Shown here: positions 33,434-45,639 of the stretch, piece by piece | Layout: each line of letters starts with the position of its first letter | How positions within the stretch are numbered: position 1 is the first letter of the stretch | The notes under the pieces: generated by a model | Database searches by the model: none | What the model was told of the DNA's origin: nothing | Seen by the model: only the letters and a program-made list of their open reading frames with translations | Position numbers and translations under genes: made by a program | NCBI RefSeq assembly: GCF_004364975.1 | Contig: NZ_SOBW01000007.1 | Location: 992,001 to 1,056,000, forward strand | DNA from: Gelidibacter sediminis | GTDB taxonomy: Bacteria > Bacteroidota > Bacteroidia > Flavobacteriales > Flavobacteriaceae | Direction of reading: 5' to 3' | Length of the DNA stretch: 64,000 nt

Positions 33434-33823
33434 GTATTCTCAAATTTAAAGGCCTAGAAGAATTGGGTGAGTTCGCAGGTCGCACAAAGATTAAATCATA
33501 GTAAGTGTCGAAATGAAAATTCTACACCTAAGATAATGAAATTACGCTTTTTAGAATTCTGATATTTAAATTATTTTGGACTTGGAATCTTCTATTCCTC
33601 AACCTTACATCATTAAACTTAGCCACACTTAATCCTGCGTAACCAATGTTTTATTGGGTGGTTTTCAAGCTAAAGGATTTAAATAAATGACTCAGAAGGC
33701 ATGTAAAATATGAGACTTTAGGGAGTTAATGTTATAGTCCTGATACTGTGAATTATTTGGATTTGTGAGCTAATAAGCGAGGATAGACAAAGTAATAGCC
33801 TGTAAACAGGTTATAAGTTTCAT
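33434..33823. other. 390-bp intergenic region at the left edge of the cassette block
   Basis: No convincing gene. The right end (about 33767-33815, gcgaggatagacaaag ... agcctg) matches the right half of the inter-gene elements further along; compare 38167-38190, gcgaggaaggacaaag ... ccatgg. The cassette at 33824 therefore also ends in such an element. The left ~300 bp are AT-rich and otherwise featureless. Confidence 0.55.
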
Positions 33824-34450
33824 TTACCATTCATCTTTCATGTCTTGATTTTTTAAATAAGACAAAAGACTTAGGTCAATTTGGCTTAATTTGTCAACTA
33901 TTTGCGGAATGATTTTCTTACCATAATTCTGTTGGGATTCATAATCCTTTCGAAATTTATCATCGTTGTTTATTCTTTTAATCGCAGCCTTTTTACCCAT
34001 TCCGTCATATTCTTCCATAGCTTTTAGGCTAAAAGTTTTATATTCGTCATAGCTCATAAAATAGACAGAAAGTGCGCGCGTTGCGTCAATTCCATCGAAC
34101 AACAAATCCGAAATATCAATTTTATATTTTCCATCCTTAAATTTTAAATCCAGAGTGTATTCCACTTTTCGCTCAGAATATAAGGTTGCTCCAAAAGCAC
34201 TAAAGTCGGCTCCAACATCAAATGCTCCTTTTATCAAAATATTATCTTCGTTGTTTATTCTAGTAACATACTTAGAGTTATTATAATTCTTTGCAACCCA
34301 ACGATTTGTTTTTTCTTGTAATTCATTTTTGTCTAGTTCGATTTCTTGAACTCTATCAACATAGATTTTTGCATTTATTGAATCGACCACAACTTGTGCG
34401 TTCCCAATAAATCCAATTAAAATAAATGTCAGAATCGTTGTTACTTTCAT
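33824..34450 (-). CDS. exported protein of unknown function (DUF4468-like)
   Basis: 208 residues with an N-terminal signal peptide (1-18, TILTFILIGFIGNA). The pattern INNEDNILIKGAF ... YTLDLKFKDGKYKIDISDLLF resembles the TBP-like DUF4468 family of exported Bacteroidota proteins, but I am not certain. It is the last gene of the minus-strand cassette block, AT-rich like its neighbours. No function can be proposed. Confidence 0.6.
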   Translation of the reverse strand: MKVTTILTFILIGFIGNAQVVVDSINAKIYVDRVQEIELDKNELQEKTNRWVAKNYNNSKYVTRINNEDNILIKGAFDVGADFSAFGATLYSERKVEYTLDLKFKDGKYKIDISDLLFDGIDATRALSVYFMSYDEYKTFSLKAMEEYDGMGKKAAIKRINNDDKFRKDYESQQNYGKKIIPQIVDKLSQIDLSLLSYLKNQDMKDEW

Positions 34451-34622
34451 AGGTACTTTTTATTAGTGTTCGATATATTTGTAATGACTGTTTTCGTTCT
34501 TTAAACACTTCATTTAGTAAATACATACAAACTGAATAGATAATCCGCGAGTCACGATATCCATTGGGATTCTTAAGTAGGCTTACCTAGCAATTGATTA
34601 TATGCGGTGTTAAATTGTTGTT
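34451..34622 (-). repeat. cassette-type inter-gene element
   Basis: Non-coding. The part 34567-34614 (gggattcttaagtaggcttacc ... in pieces GGGATTC, AAGTAGG, CTTACC, GCGGTGTT) aligns with the right half of the elements at 42233-42290 and 44122-44190. The left half has diverged. It separates two unrelated minus-strand genes. Confidence 0.55.
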
Positions 34623-35885
34623 TTAGAATTCGTTCAATTTATCAATTTCTTGTTGATAATTATACCAATCTAAATCTGATTGTTCTTCTTCTGTTTTGAT
34701 TTCTTTTGAGATTTCAATGTTTTCAAAAACATCCAAAGTCAGTTGATTTTTTTTATAATAACTAACATTATTTAACCCTTCAATTCTTGTCTTAATACCT
34801 TGCTCATCATAATGTACATATCCGATACCTTCAATAAACTCTACTTCTTTTACTCCATTTGGAAACCATCTTTCGTAACTTCTATTTTCTTTCAAAGTAC
34901 TTATTTTGGATTCTTTATTTCCATTTTCGTAGTAAGTAGTTCGAATATATTCATTGTGAGAATCTTTGAGTTCTTCCTTAACACTTAAATTCCCATTTTC
35001 ATACCATTCACAAGTTATTTTGAAAGGTTTTCCTTTCTTAGTTTTTTTAAAATATTTTTTATTTCCAGAAGGATAATATGAAGTAAGCGTTATAGTATTA
35101 TTATTTCTTTCAACTGACATTCGTAATACTCCATTTATATTGCTTTTTAAATTGAACTTTAGGGATTTCTCAAATTCTTTATCAAAATTGAGATTGAATT
35201 GTTCATCTATTATGTCGTATTGAGCAAAAGGTATTTTATCGGAAACATATAATTTTTCGAAGAACTGCTTTGAATAAATCCAATTTGAATAAACCGGGAA
35301 ATTATTTTCGCGTATTGCTTTAAATAATTCTATTTGTCGTTTATTAATCCCGTCTGAAAAAAATTCATCAAGTGTTTCTTCACATTTGAAACTTCCATTT
35401 TTATTATAAGTGTAAATTTTTTGTTCTTTATTAGGTGTATTTAAATAATTGAATTGCGAAAGTGTTGGAATTTCTTGAAATTTTTGTTGAGCAATAAAAT
35501 CTAATTTATTTAACTCAAATTTTGGTTGATAGGCTTTAGGATAAAAAATAGAATCTTTAAGTCTCCATTTTCCTCCAGGATTTAAATTAGATAAAATTCC
35601 TTCATTTAAAACTTGTCTTCCTAATTTGTAAATAATTATTCTCTCAAGTTCAAATGCAGTATCTTCATCAAGATTTGGAAATAAAATTTCAATTTTCACC
35701 TCTAAATTAGAGTCTTTAATTTTTTGAATTCTTTCTAGTTTTGAGAAATTTAAGTCATTTTTTGTAGGTTTTAAATGAGATAAATACCTTTTACCTTTAC
35801 CCTTACCAATGTAAAAATATTGATCATTTCTGGGATCGATTAATCCGTAAACGTAATATTCATTTTTGTTCAAAGGGTTCTTCAC
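34623..35885 (-). CDS. GIY-YIG nuclease-domain protein with C-terminal MORN-type repeats
   Basis: 420 residues. The N-terminal ~95 residues are a GIY-YIG domain (YYVYGLIDPRNDQYFYIGKG, residues 10-29, with glutamate in the helix FELERIIIYKLG), close to the LEM-3/COG3680 type. Residues ~95-260 are unassigned. Residues ~265-385 contain repeats of the form YYxxGNKKYF, WYENGNLSVKEE, YYENGNKESK and WFPNGVKEVEF, the MORN_2-type repeat. No signal peptide. A structure-specific nuclease tethered by MORN repeats is plausible; substrate unknown. It is a single-gene cassette. Confidence 0.75.
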   Translation of the reverse strand: MKNPLNKNEYYVYGLIDPRNDQYFYIGKGKGKRYLSHLKPTKNDLNFSKLERIQKIKDSNLEVKIEILFPNLDEDTAFELERIIIYKLGRQVLNEGILSNLNPGGKWRLKDSIFYPKAYQPKFELNKLDFIAQQKFQEIPTLSQFNYLNTPNKEQKIYTYNKNGSFKCEETLDEFFSDGINKRQIELFKAIRENNFPVYSNWIYSKQFFEKLYVSDKIPFAQYDIIDEQFNLNFDKEFEKSLKFNLKSNINGVLRMSVERNNNTITLTSYYPSGNKKYFKKTKKGKPFKITCEWYENGNLSVKEELKDSHNEYIRTTYYENGNKESKISTLKENRSYERWFPNGVKEVEFIEGIGYVHYDEQGIKTRIEGLNNVSYYKKNQLTLDVFENIEISKEIKTEEEQSDLDWYNYQQEIDKLNEF

Positions 35886-35889
35886 AATT

Positions 35890-36030
35890 ATTTATACCAG
35901 TTTTGTTTATAAGCTGTGACGTGATTAGTCACGGAGAGAACCGCAAATTGACATTTCACATTTTAAAATCCGCAGGAATTTCCAAAGTAGGCGAGAACTA
36001 GCCATAGCTTATACATATTGTTAGGCACAA
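35890..36030 (-). repeat. cassette-type inter-gene element with inverted ends
   Basis: The left end TTTATAAGCTGTGAC (near 35906) and the reverse complement of the right end (TGTATAAGCTATGGC, near 36001-36016) agree at most positions, giving an imperfect dyad of ~110 bp. GTTAGGC at 36020-36026 fits the integron core consensus GTTRRRY. Confidence 0.65.
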
Positions 36031-36035
36031 TTATT

Positions 36036-36959
36036 TTAAAATCCATAGTATTTTCCAATAGCTTCTGCTAATAAACTTCCAGCTGTTCCAATTCCAACTT
36101 TCCAAGAACCATCCAATGCTTTTCCGAGCATTTTAGTTGTCCAAGCATTAACTTTTGTACCAAATATTTTTGTTTTTTGATTAGGTTCTTCTGTATCTAT
36201 TATTTCTGCTAAATCATCAGTATCTTCAGAATTTAGACCAAGGTTTTGCAGATGCTTTATTAATTCTTCTTTATTTCCTTTCGTAATTTTAATTTTAGCT
36301 TCAATTTTAGCTTTATTTCCTGTATTTACAACGTTTCCATCTCCACTCGTATTTATAATCGTTTGACTCATAATCGTATTTATTTCGTCTTTTTTTGTTT
36401 TCAATTCAGTAATATCAGTTATATTCCCATATTCTTCATCGATTTTTAGCATAAAGTCTAATAAGCGATTTCTTACAACAGATATGATTTCAGTGATAGT
36501 TCCGGCAGCAATTTTTTTTCTAGTATTAATTAGATGTAGATAAGGATTTCCTAATTTTTGCCAATTATAACCAATTACTCCAGTTAATTCCGCACGTAGA
36601 GGCATTTCTAAGACTCCAGAAGTGCAATTTTTATATAAATTTTCTAAACCAGAAATACTTTGATAGAATTCAACAGATCGAACCGAATCCTCTAAACTTT
36701 CTGGAAGTCCGTCAGTTGGTATTGGTTGGTTATTGTACTGTGTATAACCAACTGTATAAGTTCCGATTAATTGACACCGATAAATTCGATGCTTAGGTAA
36801 AGTATCTTTTAAACTATAACCTTCTAATTCATTACTAACCCAATCAAGCAGTTGAGCATTTTGAGTTCTAGATGCTAACACTTTGGTTTTGAGTAAAGGA
36901 GAACTAATTGATTTCTCAGTATCAATTAATTCATTTATTATGTCTGCTATGAGTTTCAT
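36036..36959 (-). CDS. AbiTii-type abortive-infection-like protein
   Basis: 307 residues. The N-terminal ~190 residues match the AbiTii pattern: LIADIINELIDTEKSISSPLLKTKVLAS, then QLLDWVSNELEGY and LPKHRIYRCQ. A glycine/asparagine linker (SGDGNVVNTGNKA, ~206-218) follows. The protein ends with a short helical domain and an amphipathic C-terminus (GSWKVGIGTAGSLLAEAIG) that could contact membrane. Family members are associated with phage defence, but the mechanism is unknown to me. It is the first gene after the head sequence at 36960-37334. Confidence 0.72.
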   Translation of the reverse strand: MKLIADIINELIDTEKSISSPLLKTKVLASRTQNAQLLDWVSNELEGYSLKDTLPKHRIYRCQLIGTYTVGYTQYNNQPIPTDGLPESLEDSVRSVEFYQSISGLENLYKNCTSGVLEMPLRAELTGVIGYNWQKLGNPYLHLINTRKKIAAGTITEIISVVRNRLLDFMLKIDEEYGNITDITELKTKKDEINTIMSQTIINTSGDGNVVNTGNKAKIEAKIKITKGNKEELIKHLQNLGLNSEDTDDLAEIIDTEEPNQKTKIFGTKVNAWTTKMLGKALDGSWKVGIGTAGSLLAEAIGKYYGF

Positions 36960-37477
36960 ATAATTTTGATCTTTACTTAATACGTTAGCTTTAAGTGATT
37001 AATTTTTTTTCCGAAATAGGTGGAATTGTGCCAACACATATATAACACCCTTTTGAGATACACATATTTCCCACCAAGATAGTAAAATCCCCCACTTAAA
37101 ACATTTTAAATTTTATTTAAAGTACTCTCCTACTTACGCTTAAGTTAAAGCCTTGGTATATCACGAGTTTTTCAATTGAAAGAACCAAATTTTAAAATCT
37201 GAGAATTAATTAACAGACCTCTTCTGTAGAAAGAATTTGAAAGTTGGCTTTTCTAGAAAGTGCTAATAATACTGTAATGAAGGTCATTACCTTAAACAAA
37301 AAAGCCATTCATTTTCGTGAAAGGCTTTTTTGTTATTGTGGAGTTTCCCACTGTACTTTAGTTTCTCCAATTTTGAAGACGGTCGCGATATAAATGACCT
37401 TCTACAAATTTTCGGTGGTCGCTGCTGGTCATTTTTTCCAATACATACAATGCGGAAATATAGCTCGCCTATTTTTG
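36960..37477 (-). other. 518-bp non-coding head sequence (copy A) of a cassette run
   Basis: No real gene; a 64-residue frame at its right end is not protein-like. Two blocks are shared with 44687-44832. One contains CCCACCAAGATAGTAAAAT (37070-37088). The other is GAAAGTGCTAATAATACTGT with following bases (37255-37290). A terminator-like hairpin follows at 37295-37334. Near 37029-37047 GTGCCAACACATATATAAC resembles the outer end of the inter-gene elements. In both copies the sequence precedes a run of minus-strand cassettes. Confidence 0.6.
37295..37334. terminator. bidirectional terminator-like hairpin
   Basis: AACAAAAAAGCC (37295-37306) pairs with GGCTTTTTTGTT (37323-37334), with further internal pairs (TTCA/TGAA). 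T runs exist in both orientations. It would insulate the AbiTii-containing run from the upstream cassettes. Confidence 0.75.
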
Positions 37478-38116
37478 TCATGGCACTGTGATTTCGTAAG
37501 GTTTTTCCGGAAATCCATATAGCGTTAATTTTTCCTTACTAATTTCACGAATAGGGATTAAAGTTTCTCTTACTCCATTATTATAAATTGCCCCGAAATA
37601 CGTTCCGTCAAGGTTTTCAAGACTTAATTTCCGACCTTCTCTACGCATTCGTTTGTTAACTTCCTGAATAGCTGAACTATCTAAATCCTTATTAAAAACA
37701 AAGTTTATATGTTCATTATTCCATTGTACGTTAAATTCCAATTTCTCAATGTCCATCTTGGATAAATCAGTTTTAGTAGGTTCAATGCGTTCATAGTCCA
37801 CCTCAAAAATTTTGTCTACAGTAATTGACTCCGTTTCGCTTATTACTTTATGTTCCTTTCCATTGCGAAAAAACCTAATCCGATTTGCGTTTACAAGTTC
37901 AAATCTTGTGTCAGCTATATTTTCAACCCAAATTTCGTTTTTCGATAAAACTCCATTATGCGATTCATTCCGAACTCCAAAGTGAAGAACTTTATTGTCA
38001 TAAAATTCAATTAATTCAGGTTCGGAATAATCGTCTCCTGTTTTAATCATTAACCAAGTACCTTTAAATTCTTTCAAGTTATTTGTCGTTTTTTGAATGT
38101 TCGTGGATTGTAGCAA
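37478..38116 (-). CDS. hypothetical protein (two-part, lipocalin-like N-terminus possible)
   Basis: 212 residues, no signal peptide. The N-terminal half (EFKGTWLMIKTGDDYSEPEL ... IRFFRNGKE) has the 'G-W-x' start and beta pattern of small lipocalin-like domains, but this is only suggestive. The second half is mixed alpha/beta with basic residues (NKRMRREGRKLSLENLDGTYFG). No family recognised. Single-gene cassette; the sequence directly after its stop does not show the usual element end. Confidence 0.55.
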   Translation of the reverse strand: MLQSTNIQKTTNNLKEFKGTWLMIKTGDDYSEPELIEFYDNKVLHFGVRNESHNGVLSKNEIWVENIADTRFELVNANRIRFFRNGKEHKVISETESITVDKIFEVDYERIEPTKTDLSKMDIEKLEFNVQWNNEHINFVFNKDLDSSAIQEVNKRMRREGRKLSLENLDGTYFGAIYNNGVRETLIPIREISKEKLTLYGFPEKPYEITVP

Positions 38117-38119
38117 ATA

Positions 38120-38210
38120 AAAATAGACTTTGGACTCCCGATAGCTGTTAGGAGCAGGATTTTACTAGCGAGGAAGGACAAAGCCATGGCTTAATTACGG
38201 TGTTGGCAAC
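38120..38210 (-). repeat. cassette-type inter-gene element
   Basis: It includes the hairpin-like core TCCCGATAGCTGTTAGGA (38136-38153) and ends with a 25-bp string beginning CATGGCTTAATTACGG (38185-38209) that is identical to 44163-44187. The outer left half is short or missing compared with the 42.2 kb and 44.1 kb elements. Confidence 0.7.
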
Positions 38211-38223
38211 ATTTATTTACTTT

Positions 38224-38739
38224 CTATGCAACACCATTTACTCTAAAATCCACAAAACATTTTTTATCAATGATATAATTTATATTCCAATATCGACTTC
38301 CTCCATCAAAAATCACTTGCCATTCTGATTTCCAAGTGCCATCTGGTTTTGTCCAGCCTCGAATAGATTCCCAAAGACTGTAGCCATTCCAAATAAAATT
38401 GATGTGTATTACTTTTTGTCCATATTGGTCTATAAATCCGATGTATTGTCGGTCGTATTTTTTCAGTTTTCTATGAATAATCGGTCCGTAACCTTTTCCT
38501 TGATTGGGCTTATTCTTATTAATTTTCTTTATATCATTCTGTAATTGTTTTTCCAATTCCAAAATTTCCTTTTTTGTAGGTGTAAACCGTTTTTCAATCG
38601 AAGGATTTTCAGAATATGGAATCTCATAAGAATTGGAAAATATTGCTCCTTCAAACTTTCGGTTTTCAATCAACTCAATTTCTTGAGAAAAAGTGAAGCC
38701 AAAGTTTAAAATTAATATTATTAGAAGCAGTTTTTTCAT
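38224..38739 (-). CDS. exported hypothetical protein
   Basis: 171 residues with a signal peptide (1-18, LLLIILILNFGFTFSQ). The middle is lysine-rich and helical (KKEILELEKQLQNDIKKINK) and the C-terminal half is aromatic-rich (GWTKPDGTWKSEW, SRYWNINYIID). No family recognised. Probably periplasmic or outer-membrane associated. Single-gene cassette. Confidence 0.6.
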   Translation of the reverse strand: MKKLLLIILILNFGFTFSQEIELIENRKFEGAIFSNSYEIPYSENPSIEKRFTPTKKEILELEKQLQNDIKKINKNKPNQGKGYGPIIHRKLKKYDRQYIGFIDQYGQKVIHINFIWNGYSLWESIRGWTKPDGTWKSEWQVIFDGGSRYWNINYIIDKKCFVDFRVNGVA

Positions 38740-38757
38740 AATTAATGCCTAAGGTTG

Positions 38758-38868
38758 GGTATTTCTGTTGGCGGGGACTTTTTATAACAAGTCTTAGTAA
38801 ATATAACAAATTGAACAATTAGTAAAATTCTTTATGATAGGAACTTCCGCCCCACTAATAGAAATACC
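38758..38868 (-). repeat. inter-gene element with 19-bp inverted arms
   Basis: The left arm GGTATTTCTGTTGGCGGGG (38758-38776) pairs with 38850-38868; the arms differ at three positions. The sequence differs from the 42.2/44.1 kb type but the position and dyad architecture are the same, suggesting a second element family. Confidence 0.65.
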
Positions 38869-38871
38869 TTG

Positions 38872-39393
38872 TTATACGACGTTTTTTATCCTTTTGTTTA
38901 GTATTTCTAAAAGTTCCTGCTGTTTAATATTAATAAAATCTGTTTGAATAGCGTATTGGGAATTTGCTAATGGTTTACTTATTCTTCTAATAAATTTGTG
39001 CAGCCACATATTTGTATAATTCTCTGTAGGTTTATATAATTCAATAAATATTTGCCTGTTTGTAGCAATTCCTCGGTTGTAAGTGTTAACGATAAAAAAA
39101 GACTTTACATTCTTAATTTCTACAGTTTTAGATGAAGTCAGAACGCTATGAATAATTATTTGGTTATTTGTTATCGTTAGAAGTGGTTTTGTTCTTGTCA
39201 ATAATAAAATTGATAAAATAATTCCAAAAGCAAATAATAAAAAGGATAAAATTAAAAGCACCGTTTTAAATGGCTTTTCTTGAAAGTTAATTAGTTTGTC
39301 TTCAAGAAATATTCCGGCGATAACAATTAAGGAAGAAATTACAAGGAGTAAAAATGAAGATGATTTTTTAGAGTAAAAGTTTAATTCTTTCAA
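38872..39393 (-). CDS. small membrane protein with two N-terminal helices (PH-like domain possible)
   Basis: 173 residues. Two transmembrane helices (SFLLLVISSLIVIAGIFL and VLLILSFLLFAFGIILSILL, residues ~13-65) are followed by a mostly beta domain (LLTITNNQIIIHS ... EIKNVKSFFIV) resembling the PH-like domains of the STM3941/bPH2 type. Function unknown. Single-gene cassette. Confidence 0.58.
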   Translation of the reverse strand: MKELNFYSKKSSSFLLLVISSLIVIAGIFLEDKLINFQEKPFKTVLLILSFLLFAFGIILSILLLTRTKPLLTITNNQIIIHSVLTSSKTVEIKNVKSFFIVNTYNRGIATNRQIFIELYKPTENYTNMWLHKFIRRISKPLANSQYAIQTDFINIKQQELLEILNKRIKNVV

Positions 39394-39450
39394 TTTTATT
39401 TCAATAATTTTTATCGGATCTTTTAATATTAACGGATTGTCTGAAATGGC

Positions 39451-39620
39451 GTATATCGTGTTGGTATATGAGCTATGGCGTGTGTTGATTGTTTACGAGC
39501 TAATTTTTACAAATTTCGCCTATTAATTTTGTCAGAAATAAGTCGCATTGTATAAATGCGGAGGTTTTACAAATACAGTAAACTTGAAAAAATCCCGCCT
39601 TGCTTATATACTATTGTACA
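39451..39620 (-). repeat. cassette-type inter-gene element
   Basis: The left end (39451-39480) contains CGTGTTGGTATATGAGCTAT, essentially identical to the left ends at 42160 and 44049. The right end GCTTATATACTATTGTACA (39602-39620) is the inverted counterpart. An internal CGCATTGTATAAATGCG hairpin lies at 39544-39560. Confidence 0.72.
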
Positions 39621-39625
39621 TCCTT

Positions 39626-40792
39626 TTATTCGCGATAATTTTCAATATAATGATTAAAATAATGAGATAGATTTTCTTCTGAAATATTTGAAAATAAATC
39701 TTCGTAAACTTTGTGGTTACTTATTAAATTTATGTAATGCCATTTATGCCTATATTTTTTAACCAAACTTGTAGACCAATGAATTGACTCATTTAAACTA
39801 ATTTCATCCCAATCCCATAAGTCCTCATATTTTTCAATTAGGTGATTTGACCAAGGTAACCCTTTGTTACTTGAAAGACCAGAATATACATGTTGAAAAC
39901 CCCAAGTCCAGATATTTTTATACCTATCAATTAACTGTTCTGACCAACAAAGACCTTCATTTTCTGACAATGATTCCCAATTCCATTTATGATAATATTT
40001 TTCAATCAATTGTTCAGTCCACGGAAGTTTTTCATTCCGAGATAATGAGCCATTGGAAGGGTCGTTCCAAATTAAATAATCTTTTAGATTTTCTATTAAC
40101 GAATCGCTCCAAGGTATAGATGAATTCATTGAAATTCCTGACCAATCTAATCTGCCTTTGTGTTTTTCTAATAAATCTGGTGTCCAAATAACGCTTGTAT
40201 TCCAAGAGAGACTTGACCAGGAAATCTTTTCTCCAAAAATATTGACGAAATCAGAAGTTATTTTGAGATCCGATATATTTGGTATTGTTGACAAGTATCC
40301 TTCATTAATATATTTTTCCGCTAATTCTATAGTCCAATTTATGTGAGGATTATTTGGAAGAACACTCCACCATATTTCTTTTTTATATTTTTCTAATAAA
40401 TTATCATCGAAGGGAAAAGATTCTTGAGATAGAAATTGCCAATCTAATTTCGTTTTATATTTCTCGAGCAATTTTTCATTCCATTCGACATTGGAATTCA
40501 TAGATAAATATTCAAAATCTATATATTCTTCAAATTTTTTTATTGACTCGTCATTCCACGAAATAGCATTATTTGCTGATAAACCAGCCCAATTAAATTT
40601 ATTTTTATTTTCCCATATAAACTTCAAATTCCAATTAATTTTTTCATTATTAGATATTCCAAACTCGGGATAATCCGCACCGAACCAATCTAAATAGTTT
40701 GAATATTTATTTATGAAATCTTCAGACATTGGATAAAAAGCTGATATTGACTCTAAAAAAAATCTTTTATTTAATATAATTAATTCTTTCAT
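39626..40792 (-). CDS. tryptophan-repeat protein of unknown function
   Basis: 388 residues built from about a dozen degenerate ~24-residue repeats of the form (L/I)SxNxxIxWxxxLIEKYxxxWxW. Clear copies include LPWTEQLIEKYYHKWNWESL, LCWSEQLIDRYKNIWTW and LPWSNHLIEKYEDLWDW. The repeats should stack into an elongated helical or mixed solenoid. No signal peptide or catalytic motif. Such repeat proteins usually bind other proteins, but no partner can be named. Single-gene cassette. Confidence 0.7.
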   Translation of the reverse strand: MKELIILNKRFFLESISAFYPMSEDFINKYSNYLDWFGADYPEFGISNNEKINWNLKFIWENKNKFNWAGLSANNAISWNDESIKKFEEYIDFEYLSMNSNVEWNEKLLEKYKTKLDWQFLSQESFPFDDNLLEKYKKEIWWSVLPNNPHINWTIELAEKYINEGYLSTIPNISDLKITSDFVNIFGEKISWSSLSWNTSVIWTPDLLEKHKGRLDWSGISMNSSIPWSDSLIENLKDYLIWNDPSNGSLSRNEKLPWTEQLIEKYYHKWNWESLSENEGLCWSEQLIDRYKNIWTWGFQHVYSGLSSNKGLPWSNHLIEKYEDLWDWDEISLNESIHWSTSLVKKYRHKWHYINLISNHKVYEDLFSNISEENLSHYFNHYIENYRE

Positions 40793-40994
40793 TTAGGATT
40801 TAAAAAAACGATGGACAATGTTTAGTATTAAAGAAGTAGAGCTGTAAATAAACAACTACCTCTCGGGTTATACTCAAGATAAATCTTTTGTATTTTGTTT
40901 TAAATTATTTTTCTATAAGCCAAATCAAAAAATTTGGCGACGTTGCAAATAAGCCTGAAACATTGGGTTTAGCACTGACTTGCCCTATATTTTT
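40793..40994 (-). repeat. diverged inter-gene element
   Basis: Non-coding, AT-rich. The right end (TATACATTGTTATAG, 40997 leftward) resembles the element ends, and an internal CCAAATCAAAAAATTTGG palindrome is present near 40919-40936. It matches the consensus poorly; membership is inferred mainly from position. Confidence 0.4.
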
Positions 40995-42131
40995 TTATAC
41001 ATTGTTATAGACAGTGTTTAACAGCTGTGATATTGACAAATTAATTTGACCTTTAGCCATTAAACTATCGAACATATAACTTCTGTCTTGTCTTCCAAAG
41101 TTTGCTTTATTTAAAGTATATTTTCTATCCACATAAAATAGGTTAATAATGTCTTTTTTCTCAAATATCCATTTTGTTTTTAGAGCGTTCTTAGTTTCTT
41201 CATTTTCAATTTTAATAAAATCATTTTTCGCAAGATAATTAAGCAAATAATTTTCTAGTTTATCTTCTTTCGAAAACTCAGTAATTTTCTCTACTTGGGT
41301 AAAACCAAAGGGTGTTGGAAAAATTTTAAGTTCCACTCTTTCATCAGATACGACCATCTCGTGTCCAAAATATTCATTTGAATTTTGATTTGAAATAATT
41401 CTTTTTAAACAAACTATAAATGCCTCAATTAGAGTTTTTTGAATATAAAAATTATAAAAATATTTACGGTCTTTTAATAAATTAGAAGAAACGTTCAATG
41501 CTTTGTCATTTTTCATAACAAAATTAGCTATTGAATCAGTAAAACCCTGACCATAATCAAGAGCATCGGCATATTTACTTCGAATTTCTTGAATTTCTGT
41601 AACTGATAATTTTTTTAGAGGATCTATAGTAATTTCATAATTATCTTTTAAAATAACTGCTATAACCTCTCTGAATCTATTGAATATATTTTTTTTGAAA
41701 TTTTCGTCGTAACTAATGCTTTTGAATTCTCTGTTGAATATTACTTTGTAAATAAAATATAAGTACATTTCAGCGTGACAACTGAAAAGACATTCATTTA
41801 AAGAATCTTTAATTAAATCTAATTCTATTTCAGTTGCACTTTTATTGCTAACTAATTGGTTTATCAAACTGTTATGAAAATAGCCATATTTTTTGTCAAG
41901 ATAGTCAAATTGTATTTTTCTTATTTTAAAATCTTCTAAGTCTAAAGAAAAAATTTCGGTCGGATATTCTATTAAATTTTTCGCAAAATGCGAATCTTTT
42001 TTAAAAATTATAGCATAAGTTTTGTTAGGGTTAAATGAGTTATTATTAATTATTGAAATAACGACAGTCAACGTATCTACATTATTTATTTCATTCTCTA
42101 TTATTTCAATTGGTTTGTATTTTAATATCAT
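40995..42131 (-). CDS. hypothetical protein, 378 residues
   Basis: I choose the ATG at 42131 (MILKYKPIEIIENEIN). The frame stays open to 42194, but those 21 codons translate the inter-gene element. No recognised domain. The protein is rich in Asn, Lys and Ile, with an N-terminal mixed alpha/beta part (TLTVVISIINNNSF, KTYAIIFKKD) and a helical middle (CLFSCHAEMYLYFIYKVIF). No signal peptide. Single-gene cassette with very low GC. Confidence 0.6.
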   Translation of the reverse strand: MILKYKPIEIIENEINNVDTLTVVISIINNNSFNPNKTYAIIFKKDSHFAKNLIEYPTEIFSLDLEDFKIRKIQFDYLDKKYGYFHNSLINQLVSNKSATEIELDLIKDSLNECLFSCHAEMYLYFIYKVIFNREFKSISYDENFKKNIFNRFREVIAVILKDNYEITIDPLKKLSVTEIQEIRSKYADALDYGQGFTDSIANFVMKNDKALNVSSNLLKDRKYFYNFYIQKTLIEAFIVCLKRIISNQNSNEYFGHEMVVSDERVELKIFPTPFGFTQVEKITEFSKEDKLENYLLNYLAKNDFIKIENEETKNALKTKWIFEKKDIINLFYVDRKYTLNKANFGRQDRSYMFDSLMAKGQINLSISQLLNTVYNNV

Positions 42132-42152
42132 AATTTTATATTTTTTGCATTG

Positions 42153-42290
42153 TGTATAACGTGTTGGTATATGAGCTGTGGCGAGTGACGGCACGAACCT
42201 CTCTAAATAAAAACTGGCTTTGGAAAATCCGCTCCCGATAGCTATCGGGATTCCAAGTAAGGACTAACCAAGCCATAGGCTATACACGAC
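42153..42290 (-). repeat. cassette-type inter-gene element (reference copy)
   Basis: Left end GTATAACGTGTTGGTATATG (42153-42172), central perfect palindrome TCCCGATA-GC-TATCGGGA (42233-42250), right end AAGCCATAGGCTATACACGA (42270-42289). The outer ends are approximate inverted repeats, so the whole can fold on one strand. Most of its length matches 44044-44190 at high identity, including cacgaacctctctaaataaa (42192 on). Confidence 0.78.
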
Positions 42291-42291
42291 T

Positions 42292-43341
42292 TTACCTGCT
42301 GGCTTTTTCACTTACTATTTTTTCAATTTCTATAATGGATAAGTTTATGCCTAAAACAATTTCATTCTCGTCAATCAGATAATTAAATGGTATTCCTTGA
42401 ATTCCAAGTTCATTATATACCTGCTTGTCAAAGTCAATTAAATTAGTCCAAGTCAGATTATCTTTAGCTATAGCTTGAATCCAATTCTTTTTATTATCAT
42501 CAATTGAAACGCTTACAATATCAAAATTATCTTTCTCAAACTTCTTTTTAAGTCTTATCAAGTCAGGATGTTTTATTCTGCAAGGTCTACACCAAGAAGC
42601 CCAAAAGTCAACCAAAGTTGTTTTGCCTAAAAACGATGTTGTGTCATCATTTTTGCCTTTACTGTTTGGTAGAGTAAATTTTAAAAACGGTTTATTTATT
42701 CCATATTCATCAAGGTTTGCGATTCCCATTTTAAACATTTCTAAATCCTCTTTATTTTGTTGGGTTGTGTCAATCTTAGCATAAATTTCAATGAGTTCAC
42801 TCTTTGTTAAAACAGGCTCTATTAATGCATTTTCTGCCAAAATTGTTCCACTTAATGGATGGTTTTTGTTCTCCTCAATAAATGATTTAAGTTTCTCATA
42901 AAGTAAAGATTTAAAATTTTCTTTATTCTGATTGGCTTGATAAAACTCTTTATACTCGTTCTGAATTCTAGCAGAGTAAGAGCCTTTAATATCATTTATT
43001 TTCAGAACATTATATTTTATTTCGTTCTGAATTTGTGTTTTAAAATCGGCTTGAATTAAAATATCGCTATTTTCAATATAAATGTCAGCACTTGTATAAT
43101 ATCCTTGTAAATTTAAACTTCCTGGAATTGGTGTTTTAACCATCCCATTAAATTCAAAACTGTTATTTAAGACTTTTGTGCTGTCTTTTACATTTCCATA
43201 ATTCAAATATATATAGTCTGAATAATCACCATTTATTGTTCCTTTTAGACTGAAAGATTCTTTTTCTGCTGTTTCTTTTTTCGGGTTTTCTTTACAGCCT
43301 ATAAGAATGCAGATGATTAGAATCGTAAAAATGTTTTTCAT
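42292..43341 (-). CDS. thioredoxin-fold lipoprotein (TlpA/ResA-like, DUF4369-type N-terminus)
   Basis: 349 residues. A lipoprotein signal peptide ends at C16 (ILIGC). Residues ~28-115 resemble the DUF4369 beta domain (FSLKGTINGDYSDYIYLNYG) and residues ~215-345 are a thioredoxin-like domain with WASWCRPCR (C251 and C254). Family members are periplasmic membrane-anchored thiol-disulfide oxidoreductases, often reducing. A single-gene cassette; the only one in the block with a clear enzymatic fold besides the GIY-YIG protein. Confidence 0.85.
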   Translation of the reverse strand: MKNIFTILIICILIGCKENPKKETAEKESFSLKGTINGDYSDYIYLNYGNVKDSTKVLNNSFEFNGMVKTPIPGSLNLQGYYTSADIYIENSDILIQADFKTQIQNEIKYNVLKINDIKGSYSARIQNEYKEFYQANQNKENFKSLLYEKLKSFIEENKNHPLSGTILAENALIEPVLTKSELIEIYAKIDTTQQNKEDLEMFKMGIANLDEYGINKPFLKFTLPNSKGKNDDTTSFLGKTTLVDFWASWCRPCRIKHPDLIRLKKKFEKDNFDIVSVSIDDNKKNWIQAIAKDNLTWTNLIDFDKQVYNELGIQGIPFNYLIDENEIVLGINLSIIEIEKIVSEKASR

Positions 43342-43365
43342 AAGTTGGTTTTTTCAGCTTGGAGG

Positions 43366-43495
43366 TTACGTTGATGTGTATGATTAGTTGCGTGTTAAAG
43401 CCCATAATTTAGTAAACAAAAACTTGCCAGAGAAAATTCCGAAGGAATTTTCTAGATAAGCACTAGCCATTGCTTATACACATTGTCGTAATTTG
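43366..43495 (-). repeat. cassette-type inter-gene element
   Basis: Left part GTTACGTTGATGTGTATGAT (43366-43385), central palindrome AGAAAATTCC-GAA-GGAATTTTCT (43431-43453) and right end GCCATTGCTTATACACATTG (43466-43485). It has the same architecture as the 42.2 kb copy with a different central hairpin. Confidence 0.68.
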
Positions 43496-43535
43496 TTTTT
43501 TTATTAATTACTGTCTTTAAATGTTTTTAATAAAA

Positions 43536-43985
43536 TTAATCCGTCAATTTGAGTAAGGATAAAACTTTGATTTCCACTACTGGAATAGCCTCAAACTTGT
43601 TGATAACAATGTCTTTTATCATTAAATAAAAATCAATTTTTTTATCTCTGCTCAATAAATCAAAATTATTTTTTTCCCTGTTAATTTTGTCATTGTTAAA
43701 TCTATTAAGAAGTTTTCTTTTTGAAGTTATGTTGAGTTTGCCAATTTTATTCAAATCAATATAAAAAGAGTTTTTGTCTGGATTTTTTATGAAGTTTATG
43801 AATTTTAACTCTTCACAAATTAAATAAGAACCCTTTTGCCAGTTTTCCTCTATAATATTAGAATTACATTGAATTTCATTTTGATTAAATACAATGTATA
43901 TTTTTTCTGATGGTCTTGGTAAAAAAATTAAAACCATAATAATTATCAAAAATGCAGATATAATTAAGTATTTATAGTTTCTCAT
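43536..43985 (-). CDS. small membrane-anchored hypothetical protein
   Basis: 149 residues with one N-terminal membrane helix (YLIISAFLIIIMVLIFL, residues ~6-22) and a basic, Asn-rich remainder (LLNRFNNDKINREKNNF). No family recognised. Very low GC. Single-gene cassette. Confidence 0.55.
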   Translation of the reverse strand: MRNYKYLIISAFLIIIMVLIFLPRPSEKIYIVFNQNEIQCNSNIIEENWQKGSYLICEELKFINFIKNPDKNSFYIDLNKIGKLNITSKRKLLNRFNNDKINREKNNFDLLSRDKKIDFYLMIKDIVINKFEAIPVVEIKVLSLLKLTD

Positions 43986-44043
43986 TTTTAATAATTTAAA
44001 ATCAACTTTGGAATTCTGATTTTTTTGTTTTTTAGAAATGAAT

Positions 44044-44190
44044 TACAACGTGTGGGTATATGAGCTGTGGCGTATGTCTGCACGAACCTCTCTAAATAAA
44101 AACTGGCTTTAATAAATCCGCTCCCGACAGCTATCGGGATTCCAAGTGGGGACAGACCAAAACATGGCTTAATTACGGTGTTGGCAAACG
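44044..44190 (-). repeat. cassette-type inter-gene element (second near-identical copy)
   Basis: Left end CAACGTGTGGGTATATGAGC (44046-44065), shared middle beginning cacgaacctctctaaataaa (44081), hairpin TCCCGACAGCTATCGGGA (44122-44139), and the 25-bp end string at 44163-44187 shared exactly with 38185-38209. It is therefore a mosaic: left and middle like the 42.2 kb copy, right end like the 38.1 kb copy. Confidence 0.78.
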
Positions 44191-44198
44191 TTTTTCTT

Positions 44199-44666
44199 TT
44201 AAAGTTCTAATATTCCGGAAATCAATGTCTTGTATTCTTGAATATTTCTCTCATATTTTTTCTGTATTCTAATCCACAATATAATTCCAACAGCTAAAAT
44301 TAGAATTCCAATTAAATACAGATAAACACTGCTGGTTTCTCCTAAAATTACAGCAATAAGAACACCCAGTCCCATAATAATATCCGTAAATATTACTGAT
44401 TTCCATAAAAAATGTTGATTGAAAGAAATTTCAATATCAGTCTCGTTTTCAATATCTGTTTTTGATAATTTTCCATTTACAACAATGCTGTTTATATAGA
44501 ACAAGTACCACGCATATAGAATCCGTTTACGCATTTTAAATGTTATTGATTTATTTTTATCATGGTTCATATTAAATACTAATCCGTTAACAGATTTAAG
44601 TGAGGATTCTATTTTTTTACTAATCTCTTTAGGATTATTTTTTATTGTAAAATTCCATTTTTTCAT
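44199..44666 (-). CDS. hypothetical protein with two membrane helices
   Basis: 155 residues from the ATG at 44666 (MKKWNFTIKNNPKEISKK); an ATG at 44693 would add nine residues from the head sequence. The N-terminal ~60 residues look like a small alpha/beta domain. Two transmembrane helices follow (TDIIMGLGVLIAVIL, YLYLIGILILAVGIILWI, ~95-140). No family recognised. It is the first cassette next to the tRNA-side head sequence. Confidence 0.57.
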   Translation of the reverse strand: MKKWNFTIKNNPKEISKKIESSLKSVNGLVFNMNHDKNKSITFKMRKRILYAWYLFYINSIVVNGKLSKTDIENETDIEISFNQHFLWKSVIFTDIIMGLGVLIAVILGETSSVYLYLIGILILAVGIILWIRIQKKYERNIQEYKTLISGILEL

Positions 44667-44686
44667 ATTATCGCTTTTAATGTTTG

Positions 44687-44832
44687 GTAACACGTATATA
44701 TCAGCAGTTAGCTATATATATATTATCCCACCAAGATAGTAAAATACCTCAAGAGGAAAATTTTAAAATTTATATACTGTAATGTTTATGAAAGTGCTCA
44801 TAACGCTGTAATGAAGTCAATTGCGCTATAAA
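44687..44832 (-). other. non-coding head sequence (copy B) of the cassette block
   Basis: Shares with copy A the 19-bp box CCCACCAAGATAGTAAAAT (44727-44745) and the block GAAAGTGCTCATAACGCTGT with following bases (44796-44825). A run of TA dinucleotides lies between the box and the first cassette. It sits between the first cassette and the tRNA terminator. Confidence 0.6.
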
Positions 44833-44834
44833 AC

Positions 44835-44866
44835 AAAAAATCCAACCTAAATAAATAAGTTGGATT
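44835..44866 (-). terminator. terminator of the tRNA gene
   Basis: On the minus strand AATCCAAC (44866-44859), a 12-nt loop, then GTTGGATT followed by a T run (to 44835). It is placed directly after the tRNA. Confidence 0.8.
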
Positions 44867-44876
44867 CTGTACGTTG

Positions 44877-44950
44877 TGGTCCCACCTGGGCTCGAACCAG
44901 GGACCACCTGATTATGAGTCAGGTGCTCTAACCAACTGAGCTATAGGACC
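44877..44950 (-). tRNA. tRNA with CAT anticodon (Met elongator or Ile2)
   Basis: 74-nt cloverleaf on the minus strand. The acceptor arms GGTCCTA/TGGGACC pair; the D arm contains AGCTCAGTTGGTTAGAGC. The anticodon stem-loop is CCTGA-CTCATAA-TCAGG with anticodon CAT, and the T arm CCTGGTTCGAGCCCAGG is normal. The 3' CCA is not encoded. CAT may be elongator Met or lysidine-modified Ile2; identity elements cannot settle this by eye. A TAATATTG (44971-44964) is a one-mismatch -7 element just upstream. Confidence 0.94.
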
Positions 44951-44999: not shown

Positions 45000-45404
45000 T
45001 TATGGCTTTATGTCCTGACATAATTCAATCAAAACACCATTGGTACTTTTAGGGTGCAAAAATGCGACCAACTTATTATCTGCGCCCTTTTTCGGAATTT
45101 TGTTGAGGATGGTAAAGCCTTCGCCTTCCAAGCGTTTGAGCTCTGTTTCTATATCATCAACCGCAAAGGCGATATGGTGAATCCCCTCCCCTTTCTTTTC
45201 AATGAATTTCGCAATCGGACTATCTGCCGACGTAGCTTCCAGCAATTCAATCTTGTTAGGGCCATTCTCAAAAAATGAGGTGCGTACGCCTTCACTCTCC
45301 ACCGCTTCTATCTTGTAGTGGGGTTTCCCAAAAAGCGCCGCAAACAAGTCGTTAGAAACCTCTAAATCTTTAACCGCAATGCCTATGTGTTCTATTTTTT
45401 TCAT
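45000..45404 (-). CDS. mce: methylmalonyl-CoA epimerase
   Basis: 134-residue vicinal-oxygen-chelate protein. Metal ligands appear in KIEHIGIAVKD (His7), GIHHIAFAVDDIE and the C-terminal GVLIELCQD. It interconverts the R and S forms of methylmalonyl-CoA in propionate metabolism. Length is typical. Alternative glyoxalase-type assignment is less likely given the conserved GVRTSFFENGPNKIELLE block. Confidence 0.93.
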   Translation of the reverse strand: MKKIEHIGIAVKDLEVSNDLFAALFGKPHYKIEAVESEGVRTSFFENGPNKIELLEATSADSPIAKFIEKKGEGIHHIAFAVDDIETELKRLEGEGFTILNKIPKKGADNKLVAFLHPKSTNGVLIELCQDIKP

Positions 45405-45411
45405 AATCGTG

Positions 45412-45531
45412 CCCGCGAAGGCGGGTATCTACATCCATTCCCACGAAAGCGGGAATCTCTTTAAATTATAACTTATCCCCTTCTAAGCAACCTCAGGCGG
45501 GAATCTCATGCATTCCCACGAAAGTGGGAAT
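45412..45531. repeat. cluster of short palindromic repeats
   Basis: CCCGCGAAGGCGGG (45412-45425), ATTCCCACGAAAGCGGGAAT (45437-45456) and ATTCCCACGAAAGTGGGAAT (45512-45531), the last perfectly palindromic outside the GAAA loop. All three are variants of one hairpin with a GAAA loop. They occupy most of the 322-bp gap between mce and rbfA and look like dispersed palindromic elements, not a CRISPR (no regular unit or spacers). Confidence 0.8.
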
Positions 45532-45639
45532 CTTATAATTAGCAATCCATTTATCATTCCAAAGCTAAATCCGACCCACCTAAGGTGGCGCCAACGCAAC
45601 TTTGTATCCTCAAAAATACAATAATCCTTAAATATGCTC

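Follow-up and report, generated by a model that had tools for sequence, protein, structure and literature searches.

An integron-like gene cassette array in Gelidibacter sediminis and its probable link to a XerA-like tyrosine recombinase

We analyzed, by computation and comparison, a 64,000-nucleotide stretch of the genome of Gelidibacter sediminis (host genome G000, contig C1, positions 992001 to 1056000), referred to here as the window, in which the region at 33.8 to 44.8 kb, judged by its sequence, is a partly decayed, integron-like array of gene cassettes separated by attC-like elements. The open reading frame list and a Pfam scan confirmed the run of eleven successive minus-strand genes (33824-44693) described in the initial annotation. 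The separators of about 90 to 200 bp reported there are also real, but the gaps between the array genes were measured at about 100 to 230 bp, with a single wide gap of about 520 bp at 36960-37477. The Pfam names found in the array are DUF4468, GIY-YIG, AbiTii defence and thioredoxin-like, whereas the majority of the remaining genes have no clear match in Pfam, NCBIfam or PADLOC. By the Pfam and PADLOC annotations, the cargo of the array consists of defence genes and unknowns.

Upstream of the array head lies a tRNA-Met (CAT) gene predicted by ARAGORN (44876-44950, minus strand). The genes of the array, all on the minus strand, then follow in this order: an open reading frame of 164 amino acids (aa) without NCBIfam or PADLOC match (44199-44693); one of 149 aa without Pfam match (43536-43985); a thioredoxin-like/AhpC-TSA protein of 349 aa (42292-43341; PF13905 and PF00578); a gene without Pfam match at 40995-42133, which extends to 42194 if an upstream GTG is taken as its start; a 388-aa gene with internal repeats (39626-40792); a 173-aa gene called from its open reading frame and the Pfam scan (38872-39393); a 171-aa open reading frame (38224-38739); a 212-aa gene (37478-38116); the AbiTii defence gene of 307 aa (36036-36959; PF18864, E 1.2e-36, and PADLOC); a gene for a GIY-YIG (LEM-3-like) protein (34623-35885; Pfam, with PADLOC PD-T4-3 over residues 7-85 and a weak MORN match); and the last array gene, with a DUF4468 domain identified by Pfam (33824-34450). 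The 388-aa protein is built of repeated W/N-rich units (repeat family D3) and has no Pfam match. Beside the array, the intergenic stretch at 45404-45533 carries three copies of a short repeat resembling CATTCCCACGAAAGCGGGAATCT (D5).

Repeat analysis of the window identified the direct-repeat families D1, D2, D6 and D19 as common to separator ends, in agreement with the earlier observation that the separators share recognizable ends. We built a covariance model, R1, from an alignment of eight elements, half of them taken from the window and half from contig C4 of the same genome, and a second covariance model, R2. At E<=0.001, R1 recovered five window elements, four of which were in its training set. 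These elements, annotated on the plus strand, which is the bottom, folding strand, are located at 44047-44180 (98.7 bits, E 3.9e-20), 43367-43485 (100.4 bits), 42158-42291 (99.6 bits) and 35896-36020 (82.8 bits; the element of the AbiTii cassette), all used in training, and at 34472-34609 (degenerate; 30.3 bits, E 0.0004). R2 added a degenerate element at 38751-38871 (plus strand; 32.8 bits, E 0.00037), resulting in six model-found separators. At the thresholds used, both models missed three further plus-strand separators: a truncated half element at 38117-38223 (repeat D6), which forms the junction to a platform retained in the sister species G006, whose homology ends at 38117; an element with a long centre at 39449-39630, recognized by repeat D2 and alignment A1; and a degenerate separator at 40793-40994, recognized from the sequence only.

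On the strand opposite to the genes, the eight aligned elements have a 16-pair stem in which 88.3% of the cells are paired, as compared to 75.2% for shuffled and 27-45% for slid versions, and nine of the pairs show double changes, i.e., covariation. One stem pair is G.U in 8/8 elements and is an A.C mismatch on the other strand. Of 239 distinct elements, 219 had a better predicted folding energy on the bottom strand and 19 on the top strand, and 1 had equal values. The initial annotation had described foldable elements with a central hairpin; as a correction to it, the better fold is on the gene-opposite strand. The predicted folds contain all of the attC features that we compared, namely complementary outer boxes, a spacer, an inner stem and bottom-strand folding. 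The outer box mostly fits GTTR and departs from the GTTRRRY consensus (e.g., GTTGTAAG and GTTACC); the only full GTTRRRY core that had been noted (36020-36026) corresponds, on the complementary strand, to the end box of the AbiTii cassette. A comparison of four array loci with Rfam gave no match. Of 267 R1 hits from 29 sources, 259 entered the strand and cassette tables, the other eight being cut off, partial or very short, and in each of the 29 sources all hits used were on one strand. A few weak reverse-strand hits overlie strong ones (e.g., in L228, L250 and L116), which would be expected of near-palindromes.

These hits delimited 230 consecutive pairs of elements, one of which contained an N. 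GTT was present at both ends in 216 of the remaining 229, and 13 lacked it at one end. The data on the resulting cassettes can be summarized as follows. (i) Cassette starts are reverse-complementary to the ends of the same cassettes, with 6/6 bases agreeing at positions 4-9 in 119 of 154 distinct cassettes; when ends were reassigned by shuffling, this fraction was on average 1.6% and at most 3.9%. (ii) The complementarity runs to position 14 (14 nt) and then stops. (iii) At position 11, 132 of the 154 cassettes pair an A of the start with a G of the reversed end, and 19 have an A against a C; the A/G combination amounts to a G.T wobble on the bottom strand only. (iv) When sites were rebuilt with the cassette's own two ends, as in a circle, the bottom strand had the better predicted energy in 200 of 209 cases, and in 186 of these 209 sites the predicted stability of the circle form exceeded that of the array form. 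The attC-like site therefore seems to be tuned for the circular cassette. (v) Among 201 distinct cassettes shorter than 4 kb, the longest open reading frame (at least 60 aa) was in forward orientation in 166 and reverse in 6, and 29 had none. Two further observations concern individual arrays. In locus L321 (G095:C33), the start GTTGAAGAAGAATTC is common to 3/5 consecutive cassettes with different ends, a pattern that would fit the insertion of one element directly behind GTT. Within genome G021 (L098, L138-L143) there are 90 near-full-length pairs of alike cassettes, among them a short cassette that recurs several times, its elements lying about 435 bp apart.

The window contains two attI-like leaders, near 44690 and 37034. 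Leader copy 1 (44689-44837, minus strand; repeats D4/D8) can be aligned to copy 2 and resembles attI ends found beside recombinases; its GTT is at 44691-44689, where the minus strand reads GATATATACGTGTT followed directly by ACCAAAC. Leader copy 2 (37033-37303, minus strand) has its GTT at 37035-37033, with GTTATATATGTGTT followed directly by GGCACAATT, and the AbiTii gene is the first cassette after it. At the corresponding locus of G006, the flanks are collinear and 92-95% identical, and the 212-aa gene is retained together with the leader upstream of an attI-like site (window 37032-38117 is 93% identical to L312 4091-5177). This homology ends at window position 37032, adjoining the attI GTT (37033-37035), beyond which G006 has a different first cassette whose own ends match each other likewise. 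The window block 38117-44689 has no match at the G006 locus. In the fetched stretches of seven other genomes of the genus, only the right flank matches, in addition to element-like pieces in G005; the left-flank gene is on the same contig in G001, at a distance of 46 kb, and on other contigs in five genomes, and has no match in G003. The cassette reading had been said to fail if gene order were conserved across distant relatives; content in fact differs between sister species, with the break at the attI GTT.

Exchange at the same boundary is also seen elsewhere. A 975-bp stretch with one cassette is 98.7% identical in G000 and G005, with identity starting and stopping at GTT and different neighbours, and in G006 the start of this cassette is found again, behind the attI-like site of a recombinase in divergent orientation. 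Up to the attI GTT, locus L119 matches L101 exactly and L107 matches L117 almost exactly, but the first cassettes beyond it differ within each pair. Among ten array heads compared, the start of the first cassette was found at an attI-like site in at least six (L140, L153, L099, L104, L111 and L013); in L098 and L150 this start sits behind another element, and the window shows none. These comparisons show, at the level of sequence, that cassettes begin and end at GTT, that they vary between sister species and that one of them recurs with exact ends in unrelated contexts. By comparison, the attI beside the recombinase gene appears to be the cassette entry point, and the mostly single genes, one orientation and variable content are those of a cassette array.

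The initial annotation had noted that the window lacks an integrase and had suggested another or a distant recombinase. The first statement was borne out and the second is supported: the host genome has six PF00589 matches, none inside the window, and a tyrosine recombinase that is not of the IntI type is found at array heads, the likely integrase being encoded elsewhere in the genome. Behind the gene for this candidate (C4:175602-176726, 374 aa), an attI-like sequence begins after no more than about 45 bp; next come a single gene with its element and then another three elements. The first 100 aa or so of the protein match no Pfam family and precede a SAM-like and a catalytic domain. Although it is the top IntI-profile match of the host genome, it remains below the TIGR02249 cut-off (192 vs 265 bits), with columns 180-245 unmatched. 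In the alignment, the IntI patch/I2 insertion is present in two IntI rows and absent from the four rows of the recombinase family shown. Its core exceeds the cut-off of NCBIfam NF040815 (232.1 vs 220 bits), which bears the name 'site-specific tyrosine recombinase/integron integrase', and its closest solved structures are a XerC-like archaeal protein and XerA. The N-terminal domain gave a weak match to an XPB-DRD/HARP-like fold (Foldseek E 0.1-0.3), and its profile found nothing better than E 0.16 among solved structures.

Homologues of this recombinase (E<=1e-40) were present in 37 of 59 genomes, host included, with 55 matches, 42 of which were viewed with their flanks (41 loci); the 13 without flanks comprise ten of a 298-aa type and one each in G006:C6, G018 and G025. 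Elements in the same direction lie downstream of 21 of the 42, the first within 1.5 kb in 17 cases. Three are divergent from the elements (L113, L116 and L137), and one, of the 298-aa type, has elements in the other direction. The remaining 17 have no R1 element; in 11 of these the contig runs out about 1.1 kb downstream or sooner, which would be expected if arrays break the assembly. R2 adds downstream elements for L121 and, weakly (E 0.044), for L109. Among 80 loci from named records, a separate R1 scan took 69, and 48 were scanned for flanking elements at E<=0.1; 15 of these 48 have same-direction downstream elements, one is divergent (L265) and 32 have none. The element-bearing records include Winogradskyella ursingii, Seonamhaeicola aphaedonensis, Algibacter onchidii, Zunongwangia mangrovi and Flavobacterium aciduliphilum, as well as Algoriphagus ornithinivorans, Cyclobacterium, Aquiflexum, Rufibacter (E 0.003) and a Bacteroidales metagenome-assembled genome. 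The 298-aa tyrosine recombinase is multicopy in G005 (L117 53-949, L315 and others), with several of the copies adjoining array elements, and also in G003:C24, G007:C32 and G008:C11; it is possibly an insertion element that uses the sites.

In a first tree with one IntI row, the recombinase family is one side of a branch (69/85). A second tree retained only 2/12 IntI loci because the motif filter was too strict; there the Bacteroidota family is not one clade, requires 2 changes and falls on one side of a branch in 12% of the bootstrap trees, and the two IntI rows have their own branch (100/100), placed beside non-Bacteroidota relatives without firm resolution.

The covariance search that had been proposed as a check located elements well beyond the window. 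R1 matched the host genome 24 times at E<=1; these matches lie in the window, at the end of C4 and the start of C5, and on the small contigs C7, C8 and C9, with two more on C2. In total, 39 of 59 genomes were positive, host included, with 34/36 in the host's family and 5/23 elsewhere in the order, and the matches mostly flank single genes. We also scored 345 genomes of the phylum as defined by the Genome Taxonomy Database (GTDB), with ten candidates per genome and R1 as built from one genome. The N-terminal domain was found in 59 and an element in 58 of these 345, and 21 genomes had both, as compared to 9.9 expected (Fisher p 9e-5). True IntI exceeded the cut-off in 93 of the 345 genomes; none of the 95 with an IntI match is in the host's family, and one is in the rest of the class Bacteroidia. 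This IntI count exceeds what the relevant passages of the IntegronFinder 2.0 paper (PMC9024848) suggest, perhaps because the GTDB phylum is wider.

Arrays without a recombinase are not confined to the window. In the single-contig genome G021, 95 model hits are spread over two arrays: in array 1 the first element is 1.1 kb behind the recombinase, and array 2, half a megabase away, opens with a copy of about 100 bp of the array 1 attI region that differs from it once, and a search of the stretch around array 2 gave no recombinase match. A similar attI is also present at a second array head in G017. Having two attI-like leaders but no recombinase, the window resembles these satellite arrays, which would be either served in trans or fossils.

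Taken together, these data make it very probable that the window holds a partly decayed satellite array belonging to an integron-like system by which Bacteroidota capture genes, with a XerA-like recombinase; the checks proposed in the initial annotation support its reading of a cassette array with attC-like elements. In such a system, a cassette would mostly consist of one gene and an attC-like site, the bottom strand of which would fold and be cut between G and TT by the XerA-like recombinase with its extra N-terminal domain, so that the cassette start and the end box come from one molecule. Circular cassettes would be inserted at attI, behind the recombinase gene or divergent from it. The recombinase for the window array may be the one encoded on C4 beside its own attI and cassettes, and arrays that have an attI-like copy and no recombinase may be served in trans or be fossils. 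Such a system appears to work like an integron, yet the insertion that defines IntI was looked for and is absent, which places it outside the IntI-based kind. We give about even odds to a broader proposal, namely that an integron lineage extends across the class Bacteroidia, that its XerA-type recombinase acquired hairpin recombination independently of IntI, with an N-terminal XPB-DRD/HARP-like domain for DNA structure recognition replacing the IntI patch, and that satellite arrays with a copied attI and no recombinase are served in trans.

Several results weigh against the main interpretation of an integron-like system with a XerA-like recombinase. None of the 4 start/end pairs of the window passed the 6/6 test, and in a blind 14-mer scan around the eleven window genes a gene's own best end reached 9-11/14, as compared to 11-13 for the ends of other genes. 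Since this is no better than mispairing, the complementarity test rests on anchored sites in relatives, and the window array is accordingly regarded as a decayed example, with the clean statistics coming from relatives. In the phylum sample, 38 of the 59 genomes with the N-terminal domain have no R1 hit and 37 of the 58 R1-positive genomes lack the domain; elements were found in 20/38 genomes of the host's family, all 18 negatives belonging to genus g48. The recombinase subfamilies differ in orientation, so that a single mechanism for all of them is an assumption. Finally, some arrays are in genomes with a true IntI, and IntI could therefore move some of them.

This last point leads to the alternative that the array is a canonical integron, in which a true IntI, lost or encoded elsewhere, moves the cassettes and the XerA-like recombinase is a mere neighbour. 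The frequency of IntI in the phylum sample is in its favour, as are an IntI locus (L320) with a model-detected site of 61 bits and the arrays of f37, a family with frequent IntI, since these arrays carry the same arms, with 9/14 pairs perfect at positions 4-9. The two systems may therefore share cassettes. As an account of the window, however, it is unlikely: the host genome has no IntI above the cut-off, no genome of the host's family is among the 95 matches, the XerA-like gene heads arrays in 21/42 hits, and just 1/13 IntI loci, most with short flanks, has a model match. Intergenic repeats with imperfect inverted ends do exist, and the elements could be such transposon- or insertion sequence-derived repeats, similar to miniature inverted-repeat transposable elements, that were inserted between genes by chance. 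Single-strand hits in each of the 29 sources, cassette ends that pair with their own starts, and exchange at GTT, inside the edge of the site, make this very improbable. We give even less credence to structured intergenic RNAs or terminators kept for expression control, which would be foldable with covariation as observed; the strand that folds better is complementary to the genes (219/239), the four array loci have no Rfam match, and the cassette-specific arms have no role in an RNA.

The portions of two reviews that we consulted record integrons in Bacteroidota (PMC8618304 and PMC2426708). The passages on this phylum in the IntegronFinder 2.0 paper, which treat it beside Chlorobi and Ignavibacteria, mention only integrase-alone elements and one complete integron, in Salinibacter (PMC9024848). 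Among open PubMed Central papers, we recognized no non-IntI integrons in Bacteroidota in titles and the beginnings of abstracts; a description in a preprint or subscription journal may exist. With elements in 34/36 genomes of the host's family and recombinase-headed arrays that reach Rufibacter, Algoriphagus and Bacteroidales records, a XerA-based system, if true, would change cassette annotation across a large phylum, and a second recombinase type acting on folded sites would make the origin of integrons directly testable.

As compared to known systems, the arrays are most like sedentary chromosomal integrons with IntI, attI and attC, for which we used the attC features given in the consulted part of PMC2727003. 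Common to both are mostly single-gene cassettes in one orientation, a bottom-strand bias, an attI beside the recombinase gene, sites with outer boxes, an unpaired spacer and an inner stem, and a predicted exchange between G and TT (bottom-strand C and A), adjoining a conserved G. Unlike in these integrons, the recombinase has no IntI insertion and has an extra N-terminal domain, the outer arms are 14 nt long and cassette-specific with a near-fixed wobble, the box mostly fits GTTR rather than GTTRRRY, and the strand bias arises at least partly from G.T wobbles. The chromosomal integron of Treponema reportedly also has its recombinase in the same orientation as the cassettes but, unlike the present system, is said to have a true IntI. 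A Xer-type recombinase without I2 domain is known to act on a folded single-stranded site in CTXphi integration by the host XerCD (PMC4792948), but that is a phage site, without an integrase of its own, cassettes or arrays. According to the sections of that article consulted, the I2 helix is an adaptation of IntI to folded single strands, and no Xer dimer-resolution recombinase is known with such a domain. The N-terminal domain differs from the XPB damage-recognition and SMARCAL1 HARP domains, to which its scores are weak, by its fusion to a recombinase. With XerA/NF040815 recombinases the family shares a core above the curated cut-off, and it is set apart from them by this additional domain and by its location at cassette arrays.

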